A stretch of 33,576 nt of DNA, from the IMG/VR virus record IMGVR_UViG_3300031825_000054, positions 1 to 33,576 of that record; one strand, written 5' to 3'. Shown here one piece after another: positions 22,076 to 25,091 of this stretch. A program made the translations under genes and the position numbers. Within the stretch, counting starts at the first letter, position 1. Every line of letters begins with the position of its first letter. The notes under the pieces were generated by a model. The model had not been told where the DNA came from. It did no database searches and saw nothing but the letters and a program-made list of their open reading frames with translations. This stretch comes from a virus.

Positions 22076-22624
22076 CTACCAGGACGCCCGCCTAGCGCCT
22101 CGGCACCCCTTGCTCAGGTCGAGCAGTCGGCGTACCTGGTGGGAGAGGACGCGACCCTGGCCGAGGGACAGCACGACCTCTTGGCCGCCGGCGTCGATGA
22201 CGGTCAACGTCAGCATCGGGTCGACGGCGGCGGCGAGGGCCTGCGTCAGCGTCAGCTCGACGATGGTCGGGTCGGGGCAGCCTGCGTTGACTGGCAGCCG
22301 GACCGACCGGTGTTGGCCACGGCCGGCGCAGTCGCGGCGGTCGCACCAGTGCGGGTGTGGCATGTCGGCCGGGTCGGAGAGCTGCCCGGTGGGGTAGACG
22401 TGCACGTGCCCGCACGGCCGGTTGATGTCGGGGGCGAGGGGGACGCGGCGGGCGGTGAGGCCGGCCGCCTGGCACGCCGACACCGCCGGGATGCCATGTA
22501 GGTCGCAGACGTACGCCGAGGCGTCCAGCGAGCCGTGCAGGTCGCCGTTGGCGGCGCTGTAGATCTCCAGCCGGACGGTGGCGGGCCCTCCACACGTGGG
22601 GAGCGCGATGGGTAGGGTTCTCAT
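22076..22624 (-). CDS. Cys/His-rich hypothetical protein
   Basis: 182 residues from ATG 22624, three bases after a hairpin whose loop and 3-prime arm hold the Shine-Dalgarno (see 22628-22645). Cys and His form scattered pairs: LPTCGGPATV, AYVCDLHG, ACQAAG, CGHVHVY, HWCDRRDCAGRGQH. This suggests one or two zinc sites in the first 110 residues. The remainder is an alpha/beta domain (VDPMLTLTVIDAGGQEVVLSLG). Family not recognised, though an N-terminal CGG and CDLHG pattern is common in small actinobacterial phage and ICE proteins. It diverges from an HTH gene across a regulatory region rich in inverted repeats. Confidence 0.7.
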   Translation of the reverse strand: MRTLPIALPTCGGPATVRLEIYSAANGDLHGSLDASAYVCDLHGIPAVSACQAAGLTARRVPLAPDINRPCGHVHVYPTGQLSDPADMPHPHWCDRRDCAGRGQHRSVRLPVNAGCPDPTIVELTLTQALAAAVDPMLTLTVIDAGGQEVVLSLGQGRVLSHQVRRLLDLSKGCRGARRASW

Positions 22625-22627
22625 GGG

Positions 22628-22645
22628 TCGACCTCCCGGGGTCGA
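22628..22645 (-). promoter_or_regulatory. SD-presenting leader hairpin
   Basis: On the minus strand, TCGACC (22645-22640) and GGTCGA (22633-22628) pair around CCGGGA; the Shine-Dalgarno GGGAGG straddles loop and 3-prime arm. The arm ends 3 bases before ATG 22624. The same architecture with different but still complementary arms is found at 25001-25018, and both are preceded by CCTTGA. A leader element affecting initiation is inferred. Confidence 0.55.
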
Positions 22646-22724
22646 TCAAGGGCTCCCGGGACGCTGCGCCACAGCTTCCCGGGGCCCGCCTTGACGGTGA
22701 CGATGGATGACCGTCTCACTGCTC

Positions 22725-22754
22725 ACGGTATGCCTGGCAGTGCCACATCATCAA
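22725..22754 (-). promoter_or_regulatory. Candidate promoter for the Cys/His-rich gene
   Basis: On the minus strand, TTGATG (22754-22749) and TACCGT (22730-22725) are spaced by 18 bases, matching an actinobacterial -35 TTGNNN and -10 TANNNT. Predicted start near 22718 gives a leader of roughly 94 bases carrying the SD hairpin. The -35 lies inside the inverted repeat at 22743-22766, so a bound regulator would block it. Confidence 0.4.
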
Positions 22755-22796
22755 CCCTTGATGTGGATACATGGTGTCGTTCCGTGTGGACCACAC
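22743..22796. promoter_or_regulatory. Operator-like inverted repeats in the divergent region
   Basis: CCACATC (22743-22749) pairs with GATGTGG (22760-22766), and GTGTGG (22784-22789) pairs with CCACAC (22791-22796). All four arms share CCACA or its complement TGTGG. An alternative inner palindrome, CATCAACCCTTGATG, lies at 22749-22763. The block sits between the minus-strand gene at 22624 and the HTH gene at 22847. This 222-base region lacks third-position G/C bias, so it is not coding. Binding by the adjacent HTH protein is a guess. Confidence 0.5.
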
Positions 22797-22846
22797 AAGA
22801 TCCCCACGTCGTGGCAGGCCCCGGCGGATACATAGGATTCCGCGAC

Positions 22847-23098
22847 GTGGCCACGCTCGACGACCTGGTGAAGGCGTACCGGCGCGCCGAGAGTGCGGTG
22901 CCGGCAGCCGAACGGGCCGCCGAAGCGAAGGTCAAGGCAGCACGGGAGGCACAGGCCGCAGCCCGCCGCGCGCTGGCCGCCGGCATCATCGAGGCGTGGC
23001 AGGCCGGCATCAGCCAGTCGGAGATCGCACGGCGGACCGGTTACTCACGGGAGCACATCCGGCGGATCCTGCGTGCCGGGGGAATCGAGCCGGAGTAG
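22847..23098 (+). CDS. Small HTH protein with coiled helix
   Basis: 83 residues from GTG 22847. An upstream TTG at 22691 is in frame, but codons 22691-22846 lack the G/C third-position bias of real genes here, so the shorter form is preferred. Residues 1-45 are a charged Ala-rich helix (TLDDLVKAYRRAESAV, AAREAQAAARRAL). Residues 48-80 carry a helix-turn-helix typical of small DNA-binding proteins (GISQSEIARRTGYSREHIRRIL). TAGGAT (22833-22838) could be a -10 for a nearly leaderless message. Probably a regulator acting on the adjoining inverted repeats, by position only. Confidence 0.65.
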   Translation: MATLDDLVKAYRRAESAVPAAERAAEAKVKAAREAQAAARRALAAGIIEAWQAGISQSEIARRTGYSREHIRRILRAGGIEPE

Positions 23099-23211
23099 CG
23101 GCTTCCTGTTTGAGCAGTACGCCTGTTCGGATAGGCAGAGGCAGATCCCGCGTTATCTGTCAGACCGGCGGAGAATTGTTGACTCTGCAACTTGTAGCTG
23201 GCGAAATCGTC

Positions 23212-23535
23212 ATGGTGTGGTCGTCACTGGAAGTCGCCGCCATCTGGATTCCCCCCGACCTCGATCCCCTTGAACCCCACGTCATGGCCTGCCTGCACCA
23301 CGTCCGGCGCTGCCGCTACGAGTTGCTTGGGGTCATCACCGCCGCCCCGTGGGACGACGTCGGGCAGTTGATGGCCGCTGGGAAGGTCGACGTCGTGGTC
23401 GTCTCCGACCCGGACCACCTTCCGGCCGACCGGAGGCCCCGCCTCGAAATCGCCGGCGCGCACATGCTGCCGCCCCCACCGGACGCGCTGCACGTTGCGC
23501 CTGCCCGCCGCCGGCCCCGACGTCGCCGCATCTGA
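23212..23535 (+). CDS. Second small Rossmann-like protein
   Basis: 107 residues from ATG 23212; TTG 23179, with GGAG five bases upstream, is a possible longer start. The protein has MACLHHVRRCRYELLGVIT, DVGQLMAAGKVDVVVVSDPDHLP and an Arg-rich end (PARRRPRRRRI). This matches feature by feature the protein encoded on the minus strand at 21684-22010, suggesting distant paralogues. The alpha/beta order and acidic DPD loop recall resolvase-like folds, but no catalytic serine is placed as in active recombinases. A perfect terminator follows seven bases after the stop. The 113 bases 23099-23211 hold no gene I can support. Confidence 0.6.
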   Translation: MVWSSLEVAAIWIPPDLDPLEPHVMACLHHVRRCRYELLGVITAAPWDDVGQLMAAGKVDVVVVSDPDHLPADRRPRLEIAGAHMLPPPPDALHVAPARRRPRRRRI

Positions 23536-23541
23536 CACGAC

Positions 23542-23575
23542 GATGCGCCCCGCCCGAACCCGGGCGGGGCGCATC
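23542..23575. terminator. Bidirectional hairpin terminator
   Basis: Perfect 15-bp inverted repeat GATGCGCCCCGCCCG (23542-23556) and CGGGCGGGGCGCATC (23561-23575) with a 4-base loop, between convergent genes ending at 23535 (plus) and 23589 (minus). Strength and position support termination of both. Minus-strand readers would come from the integrase operon. Confidence 0.85.
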
Positions 23576-23588
23576 CATTGGTATCACG

Positions 23589-23771
23589 CTATCCGGCCCA
23601 GGGCGGGCACGGCCGGTCGTACGCGGTGCATGCCGGCGCGGACGGCGCCAGCGGCGGCGGCGTGGCCGGCTGGCCCTGCGCGGGGCAGCCCGCGAGGACG
23701 TAGACCGCGGTAACCAGGACGCCGGCGAGCACGACCGTCAGCAGCACGAAACGCTGCCTGAGGCTGATCAT
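23589..23771 (-). CDS. Small lipoprotein coupled to the integrase gene
   Basis: 60 residues from ATG 23771, overlapping the integrase stop (ATGA). A strong Shine-Dalgarno GGGGAGGTGAT lies just upstream, on a 4-bp hairpin. Residues 1-28 are a basic start then a hydrophobic helix, ending in a lipobox LAGC with C29; the rest is Pro/Ala-rich (GQPATPPPLAPSAPACTAY, then DRPCPPWAG) with two more Cys. This predicts an envelope-anchored lipoprotein. Placement after an integrase is odd; it may be a lysogenic-conversion gene or a remnant. A TM-anchored rather than lipidated protein is possible. Confidence 0.65.
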   Translation of the reverse strand: MISLRQRFVLLTVVLAGVLVTAVYVLAGCPAQGQPATPPPLAPSAPACTAYDRPCPPWAG

Positions 23772-24619
23772 GTGGGATCACCTCCCCTCGACGGCGGGGG
23801 CGGCAGCGCCCGCACGGCGGCGGTCGCCTTGTCGCTGACCGTGGCCACGTAGATCGACGTGGTGTCCGGCGACGAGTGGCCGAGCAGTTCCTGCGTCATG
23901 CGCAGGTCGCCGCCGCCGGCGTCGTTGACGTTGGTGCCGTACCAGTGGCGCAGCCGGTGCATGGTCACGTCCTGGTGGCCGAGCCGGCACAGATGACGGT
24001 TGCCGCGGTCGCTGACCGCTTCGGCGGTCGCGCCGCCGGCGATGAGACCGGCGGGCAGGTCCCGCACGGCGTCCCACACCGCAGGGTGGGTGGGGATCCG
24101 CCGCGACTTGCCGCCCTTGCCGTTGACGAAGGTGACCGTCTCGTACACGTCGCCGCGGTCGAGCTCGGCGATCTCGCAGCAGCGCATCCCCTGGTAGGCG
24201 GCGATGAGGTACCACAGCCAGTAGGGGTCGGCGGCCCGGGCGAGGATGTCGTGGTGCTGCGCGGCGGTGATCGGCCGTGGCCGGCCCTTCTCCACCCGGA
24301 CGCCGGGCAGCCGGCGGGCCGGGTTCTGGTCAAGCCACGCGTTGTCGTCCAGGTCGTCGGGGTCGGGGCACGCCCAGGCGTAGAAGCCGACGATGGCCGC
24401 CCGGTACAGCTTCGACGCCTCCTTGGAGCGGTTGTCCGCCCAGATCCACGCGGTCAGTTCCTCTGGGTACGCGGACTCCAGTCCGTAGGGGAGTTCGCGG
24501 TCGGCGCGGGCCAGGATCTGCCGGTAGCTGTTGATCGTTTTCGGTCGGCGGCCGAGGATCCGCAGGTGGGTGGTGTAGTGGTCGATGAGGTCGGTGACCT
24601 CTCGCGCGGGCGCGGTCAC
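23768..24619 (-). CDS. int: Tyrosine-family site-specific integrase
   Basis: Catalyses integration into, and with a partner excision from, the host chromosome. 283 residues from GTG 24619, overlapping the previous stop. Residues 1-95 form the SAM-like core-binding domain (VTDLIDHYTTHLRILGRR, ASKLYRAAIVGFYAWA). The catalytic half shows the full set: R146 in AYQGMRCCEIAEL, a lysine in GKGGKSRR (K168/K171), H221-x-x-R224 in MHRLRHWYGT, H248 in ELLGHSSPDTT and nucleophile Y257 in TSIYVATV. There is no obvious arm-binding domain at the N-terminus, so it belongs to the shorter class. attP is not identified with certainty; palindromes at the repressor 3-prime end are candidates. Confidence 0.95.
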   Translation of the reverse strand: MTAPAREVTDLIDHYTTHLRILGRRPKTINSYRQILARADRELPYGLESAYPEELTAWIWADNRSKEASKLYRAAIVGFYAWACPDPDDLDDNAWLDQNPARRLPGVRVEKGRPRPITAAQHHDILARAADPYWLWYLIAAYQGMRCCEIAELDRGDVYETVTFVNGKGGKSRRIPTHPAVWDAVRDLPAGLIAGGATAEAVSDRGNRHLCRLGHQDVTMHRLRHWYGTNVNDAGGGDLRMTQELLGHSSPDTTSIYVATVSDKATAAVRALPPPPSRGGDPT

Positions 24620-24996
24620 CGCCGCCCCCGGCTGATCTCACCAGCCTCACCGGCTGCCGCCATGCCGGTGGCCGCCTGGTCTAGGTCATCGGCCGGCGCC
24701 GCCTGGCACTGCCCGGTGCCCCGTTGGACGGGCGGCGGCAGCTGCTCGGTCCGTCGGTGGATCTCGAGGCACGCGATGGCCTCGCGCAGGTAGTGGGCGA
24801 GCAGGTACGCCCCGGCCAGATCCTCATCGGCAAGGTCGGCCACGGCGTCGATCATCTTGTCCTCGCTGCTGAAGCGCAGGTTCCAGTCCCAGTCGATCGA
24901 CACGGCGCGGGCCAGCACGCCGCGGCCGGCGACAGACACGCGCCTCGCCGCCGTGGCGTCGGCCGTGCCAGCGGGAGTTCTCGGTACTGTGCGCAT
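24616..24996 (-). CDS. Hypothetical protein between repressor and integrase
   Basis: 126 residues from ATG 24996, with AGGAGG in the loop of a hairpin just upstream. A basic, Ala/Arg-rich N-terminus is followed by an apparently globular segment, IDWDWNLRFSSEDKMIDAVADL then LAGAYLLAHYLREAIACLEI, mainly helical. The remaining third is Gln/Pro/Ala-rich. I do not recognise the family. Its stop overlaps the integrase start (GTGA), so the two are probably translated together; an integration partner or recombination directionality factor is possible only by position. Confidence 0.65.
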   Translation of the reverse strand: MRTVPRTPAGTADATAARRVSVAGRGVLARAVSIDWDWNLRFSSEDKMIDAVADLADEDLAGAYLLAHYLREAIACLEIHRRTEQLPPPVQRGTGQCQAAPADDLDQAATGMAAAGEAGEISRGRR

Positions 24997-25000
24997 TGGG

Positions 25001-25018
25001 TCGGACCCTCCTGTCCGA
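25001..25018 (-). promoter_or_regulatory. SD-presenting leader hairpin, second copy
   Basis: On the minus strand, TCGGAC (25018-25013) and GTCCGA (25006-25001) pair around a loop that is exactly AGGAGG. The arm ends four bases before ATG 24996. CCTTGA precedes it, as at 22628-22645, where the arms differ yet remain complementary. Such covariation suggests an RNA or DNA element under selection. Confidence 0.6.
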
Positions 25019-25091
25019 TCAAGGCCCTCGGTGCGGCGTCGCGAGCGACCGCCTGAGGCCGACTACTGGTGGTGGGCGTGCCTGTTCGGAT

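Follow-up and report, generated by a model that had tools for sequence, protein, structure and literature searches.

To our knowledge, few structured leaders have been described for GC-rich actinobacteria. Among phage sites, the SAS/ESAS elements of cluster K mycobacteriophages (PMC3203893) and cluster EF Microbacterium phages (PMC7302621) resemble the leader described here in having a conserved SD motif 3-7 nt from the ATG, an inverted repeat or motif upstream, and many unrelated genes downstream. According to the discoverers of the cluster K ESAS, the differences between its arms do not support RNA pairing (Pope 2011, PMC3203893), and later work placed a putative SigA-like promoter there (PMC11373665). 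The ANTAR-target RNAs of actinobacteria consist of two stem-loops joined by a linker of 2-25 nt, with hexaloops that carry A1 and G4; like the leader, they combine two hairpins with a short linker, often lie over the SD or AUG, and have many targets (PMC8164766). Translational riboswitches and RNA thermometers share with the leader the presence of structure around the SD.

The phage window and its two leader copies

The window, that is, the whole stretch of DNA that was analysed, is a virus record of 33,576 bases in which terminase, portal, major head, tail and endolysin genes are present. The closest named relatives of the capsid are those of mycobacteriophages (about 29% identity). Given the structural and lysis genes, together with a tyrosine integrase, we take the window to be a temperate tailed phage. 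The features that concern the leader are as follows.

22076-22624, minus strand: gene A, 182 aa, N-terminus MRTLP
22613-22700, minus strand: leader copy A, entire conserved element (model R1, 54.2 bits, E 9.8e-13)
22650-22687, minus strand: copy A P1, a long hairpin with an inner stem (P1-only fold -30.5 kcal/mol; P1 covaries in relatives)
22646-22649, minus strand: copy A linker UUGA, read directly from the sequence
22628-22645, minus strand: copy A P2, TCGACC / CCGGGA / GGTCGA, containing the SD GGGAGG (22637-22632)
23768-24619, minus strand: tyrosine integrase, 3' of gene B (Pfam PF00589, E 1.3e-12)
24616-24996, minus strand: gene B, 126 aa, N-terminus MRTVP, overlapping the integrase start by 4 nt
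24985-25073, minus strand: leader copy B, entire conserved element (model R1, 47.5 bits, E 5.5e-11)
25023-25060, minus strand: copy B P1, with some mismatches (fold -16.4 kcal/mol)
25019-25022, minus strand: copy B linker UUGA, read directly from the sequence
25001-25018, minus strand: copy B P2, TCGGAC / AGGAGG / GTCCGA, the SD being the exact loop
25108-25548, minus strand: XRE-type regulator, upstream of leader B on the same strand (Pfam HTH_31, E 8.5e-9)

The preliminary description reported two minus-strand hairpins, each running from CCTTGA through an arm, a loop and a second arm to an ATG, and every detail of these holds on re-reading. In copy A, CCTTGA (22651-22646) is followed by the arm TCGACC (22645-22640), the loop CCGGGA (22639-22634), the arm GGTCGA (22633-22628), CCC and the ATG (22624-22622). 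The corresponding parts of copy B are CCTTGA (25024-25019), TCGGAC (25018-25013), a loop that is exactly AGGAGG, as had been noticed (25012-25007), GTCCGA (25006-25001), CCCA and the ATG (24996-24994). However, each hairpin makes up just the 3' half of a larger element, about 90 nt long, whose upstream hairpin P1 (22687-22650 and 25060-25023) had been missed.

The covariance model R1 was built from 43 other sequences, with the window excluded, and the window was searched with filters off. It found exactly two sites, copies A and B, which are far beyond chance; the next best of the 34 matches scored 10.7 bits (E 0.29). Several non-standard pairs occur in P1 of copy B in the model alignment. The sequence of a third, weaker hairpin proposed earlier (23786-23774) is present, but R1 does not match it and it is an ordinary extended SD, so that it was ruled out as a member of the family.

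Copy B lies between the XRE regulator and gene B, and is the head of the integrase operon in the window. A 60-aa ORF, whose ATG overlaps the integrase stop, has the extended SD GGAGGTGATCC (23769-23786, minus strand), a sequence fully complementary to the 3' end of actinobacterial 16S rRNA. Gene B, the integrase and this ORF look translationally coupled. A Pfam search with gene B gave no match, and gene A has a weak match to Phage_zn_bind_7 (E 0.00037), below the cut-off. Gene A also clusters with L111 and L199, relatives in two other genomes that carry the same leader. Protein searches of viral contigs with genes A and B found no relatives, and nucleotide searches of plasmids and phages gave none, or short chance matches only; relatives were therefore collected through DNA patterns and the covariance model.

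Architecture and distribution of the leader family

The search pattern derived from the two window sites, CCTTGATCGN{2,9}GGAGGN{0,5}CGACC, was run against contigs from viruses and genomes. Many matches were chance ones inside genes, and at least about 45 lie directly before an ATG or GTG. Once lined up, these relatives share far more than the pattern, namely P1, the UUGA linker, P2 and the start codon. From 5' to 3', the element of about 90 nt comprises P1, the linker UUGA, P2 around the SD, CCC, the AUG, and a conserved UA about 11 nt into the gene. P1 has the form GGnCCCGG…CCGGGnCC and contains an inner stem, and its apical loop ends in AA. Among short-type relatives (defined below), CCTTGA directly precedes P2 in 76 of 85, and the SD motif lies within P2 in 84 of the 85 cases parsed.

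The hairpin structure is well supported by covariation in the aligned sequences. Alignment A1 (43 sequences, window excluded) has 18 pairs in three helices, with 92.0% of cells paired, and contains 97 double changes, compared with 30.0 (sd 4.9) on shuffling and 2-25 with partners slid; three P2 base pairs imposed by the search pattern count for nothing here, and the inner pairs and all of P1 are free. Pair 66-79, for instance, is CG in 29 sequences, GC in 12 and AU in 2, and is broken in none. The 122 further model matches (120 distinct sequences), many of them outside the pattern, give 363 double changes against 96.9 (sd 7.1) shuffled, in an alignment that leans towards the model because it was fitted to it. 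The P2 stem is replaced by variants such as TCAGGA/TCCTGA and TAGCTC/GAGCTA. Short-type stems fall into a few discrete types (TCAGGA, TCGCAC, TCGGAC, TCGCC and TCGAC), which perhaps follow host groups. The covariance search that the preliminary description had proposed as its own test thus yielded many further covarying examples, and these strongly support its claim of a shared element at translation starts, with changes that preserve pairing.

The leader occurs both in actinobacterial viruses and in bacterial genomes. Among the matches listed, all start-adjacent pattern matches of known source are actinobacterial, the named sources being Micromonospora, Actinoplanes, Nonomuraea, Streptosporangium, Planobispora, Herbidospora, Microtetraspora, Sphaerimonospora, Spongiactinospora, Actinomadura, Pseudonocardia and Actinomycetospora. 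The model has matches in all 20 source genomes, 1 to 16 in each and sometimes several within a few kilobases. In the class Actinomycetes, the model matches 82 of 297 genomes at E<=1e-3; at E<=1e-5 the number is 58 (a count of the rows listed). The best score in 20 control genomes outside Actinomycetes was 31.7 bits, and none of 142 alphaproteobacterial genomes had a match at E<=1e-4. The class of a Thermoleophilia genome and that of an Acidimicrobiaceae genome gave one weak match each (1 of 79 genomes, 32.8 bits, and 1 of 80, 34.9 bits). When 30 named actinobacterial genomes were searched, Phytohabitans, Herbidospora, Nonomuraea and Allosalinactinospora proved to contain the leader and one Streptomyces had a weak match; S. 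griseus, Nocardia, Mycobacterium, Rhodococcus and Microbacterium lack it. Loci L351, L353, L355 and L356 have several copies within a few kilobases, including three in L356 and three in L351 before similar XRE-type genes that begin MQNVPN.

An ATG or GTG stands at the expected place in 183 of 187 distinct matches, with the leader in sense with the gene. The four matches without a recognised ATG or GTG gene start are L205:1501-1596, L188, L353 and L361; the L205 copy, with ATA at the expected start, may have decayed. The downstream proteins of at least 25 residues (n=173) form 81 unrelated clusters, or 91 when all 183 are counted. Pfam searches with ten cluster representatives identified DUF6907, GntR, DUF2637 and S-adenosyl methyltransferase, most representatives having no clear family; by sequence inspection, XRE regulators, HNH and GIY-YIG type enzymes and an integrase also lie downstream. 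No function shared by the downstream genes points to a ligand. According to a crude gene caller, the upstream neighbour is divergent in 90 cases and co-directional in 80. A promoter at a fixed place upstream was sought, and TANNNT has no clear enrichment there (23 occurrences within the 18 nt closest to P1 and 21 within the most distant 30).

Early codons are AU-enriched, and a UA dinucleotide is found at offset 10 or 11 from the start codon (+10 to +12) in 58 of the 91 clusters, compared with 2 at a control offset. Both window genes carry it (22613-22614 and 24985-24986, minus strand). Given that the UA occurs in two reading-frame phases, it is a signal in the nucleotides rather than in the peptide.

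Possible function and rival explanations

In the short type of P2 (112 cases, including the two in the window), the SD lies in the loop and extends over the beginning of the 3' arm. The long type (47 cases) has CCUG or CCUU paired with a portion of the SD itself. Median P2 energies are -7.5 kcal/mol (quartiles -8.1 to -6.6) and -7.1 kcal/mol, respectively. The idea that the long forms are a separate RNA was rejected, P1, UUGAUC and the start position being identical on inspection. Ordinary genes have a modelled SD accessibility of 0.39, compared with 0.66 in the short type and 0.38 in the long type; the earlier term 'SD-presenting' therefore suits the short type, to which the window copies belong, but not the long type. 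The higher modelled accessibility of the short type fits display of the SD as well as control. When short-type leaders were placed over foreign coding starts, mean accessibility fell from 0.58 to 0.37 on shuffling the first 62 nt. Insulation of the short type from the coding sequence is unsupported, since foreign coding starts make its accessibility more variable rather than less so.

We think it reasonably probable that the leaders are a structured 5' family of the class Actinomycetes and its viruses, acting in mRNA at translation initiation, with a factor that opens or holds P2. The preliminary description had suggested a translational or protein-binding control element, which would fit the position, orientation and structure. 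In this scenario, P1, a stable hairpin with an apical loop ending in AA, and the UUGA linker would serve as a recognition and stabilising module, and P2 encloses the SD. Because the 3' arm of P2 fills the spacer between SD and AUG, the 30S subunit would have to open P2 to start. A factor, for which a host protein, a small molecule and temperature are candidates, may read P1, the linker or the early-coding UA and shift the balance of P2, so that one signal would set the translation of many unrelated genes. The sequences show that the leader exists, together with its covarying structure, its position and its distribution, and from them we infer the regulation of P2 opening and the factor; the asymmetric conserved bases (UUGA, the apical AA and the UA) suggest specific recognition. 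Counted against this scenario as a whole is the unusual scarcity of G-U pairs in the covarying helices (about 13 of roughly 1,870 paired cells), which are rarer than in 28 tRNAs of the same loci (4.3%). For the window, this predicts that the expression of gene B depends on copy B; given that the end of gene B overlaps the integrase start by 4 nt, this control would probably reach the integrase through translational coupling. More tentatively, the leader may be the target of a host factor of filamentous actinobacteria that reads P1, UUGA and the coding-region UA. Such a factor would control the translation of a regulon scattered over small genes of mobile elements, phage genes and regulator genes.

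A different and, in our opinion, unlikely explanation is that of a passive, portable module for translation and stability, whose local hairpins keep the SD exposed in GC-rich mRNAs and protect the 5' end, no regulating factor being involved. It would account for the SD zone of the short type being unpaired more often than in ordinary genes and than with the upstream 62 nt shuffled (0.37), and for the AU-enriched early codons, and unrelated downstream genes require no shared signal. However, it leaves UUGA, the apical AA and the UA unexplained, the long type is no more accessible than controls, and the greater variation of the short type over foreign coding starts also argues against it. The strict Watson-Crick covariation, and the large number of copies that lie in viral contigs or precede small genes of mobile type, would suit a hairpin site in single-stranded DNA that serves recombination or transfer, as attC does, travels with mobile genes and is located at gene starts only incidentally. 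The near absence of G-U keeps such a site alive at low odds, but the start-codon placement, the single orientation, the SD inside P2 and the chromosomal copies before regulators make it highly improbable; position, orientation and the SD favour the RNA reading.

We also give very little credence to the inverted repeats as operators of a dimeric DNA-binding protein. About half of the copies lie in divergent intergenic regions and the set of P2 stems is limited, but double-stranded DNA operators are disfavoured because the paired bases change freely in sequence yet keep pairing, and arm spacing and loop length vary in a way that a sequence-specific dimer would not tolerate. It is similarly difficult to believe that the leader is a divergent form of the cluster K SAS/ESAS sites, which have the same layout of an upstream inverted repeat and then an SD-containing short inverted repeat by the AUG, before unrelated genes (PMC3203893). 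R1 detects no copy in phage Anaya, where its best score is 5 bits (E 8.2) although 15 SAS-like sites are present, and the 13-bp SAS sequence GGGATAGGAGCCC has one match with 2 mismatches in the window, away from the leader sites and not above chance (0.9 expected). ESAS is a 17-bp imperfect inverted repeat with arms that do not covary (PMC3203893) and hold a putative SigA-like promoter (PMC11373665), whereas the P1 arms of the leader covary.

Comparison with known RNAs and sites

Searches of Rfam 15 returned nothing beyond chance matches over the element, whether in the window, in 10 loci at the gathering score or in 15 loci at E<=1, and no description of the leader was found in the open-access PMC literature. 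Given the lack of a match in the RNA database searched, the leader is probably a new translation-control signal. Unlike riboswitches and thermometers, it has no large conserved ligand-binding core, no shared downstream pathway and no Rfam match. Its linker of 4 nt and the two hairpins formed in 128 of 183 minimum-energy folds agree with the two-stem-loop plan of the ANTAR-target RNAs. However, hexaloops with A1 and G4 occur in both hairpins in none of these 128 folds (in P1 in none, in P2 in 8), and the SD, unlike in those RNAs, is fixed inside P2. In comparison with SAS/ESAS, the leader is unrelated in sequence, has a covarying P1 in place of arms with a putative promoter, and is found in bacterial genomes too.

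With compensatory changes in its helices and a constant place at the start codons of diverse genes, the leader is by structure and position of the structured cis-regulatory type, and an effect on expression is predicted. In hosts and their viruses, it is shared by some 90 gene families that are unrelated to each other, and a single genome has up to 16 matches. Because it heads the integrase operon of the window phage, it may influence whether the phage integrates or enters lysis. The leader family offers a search-ready model and a regulon that can be tested, and it stands in clear contrast to the unexplained SAS/ESAS sites.
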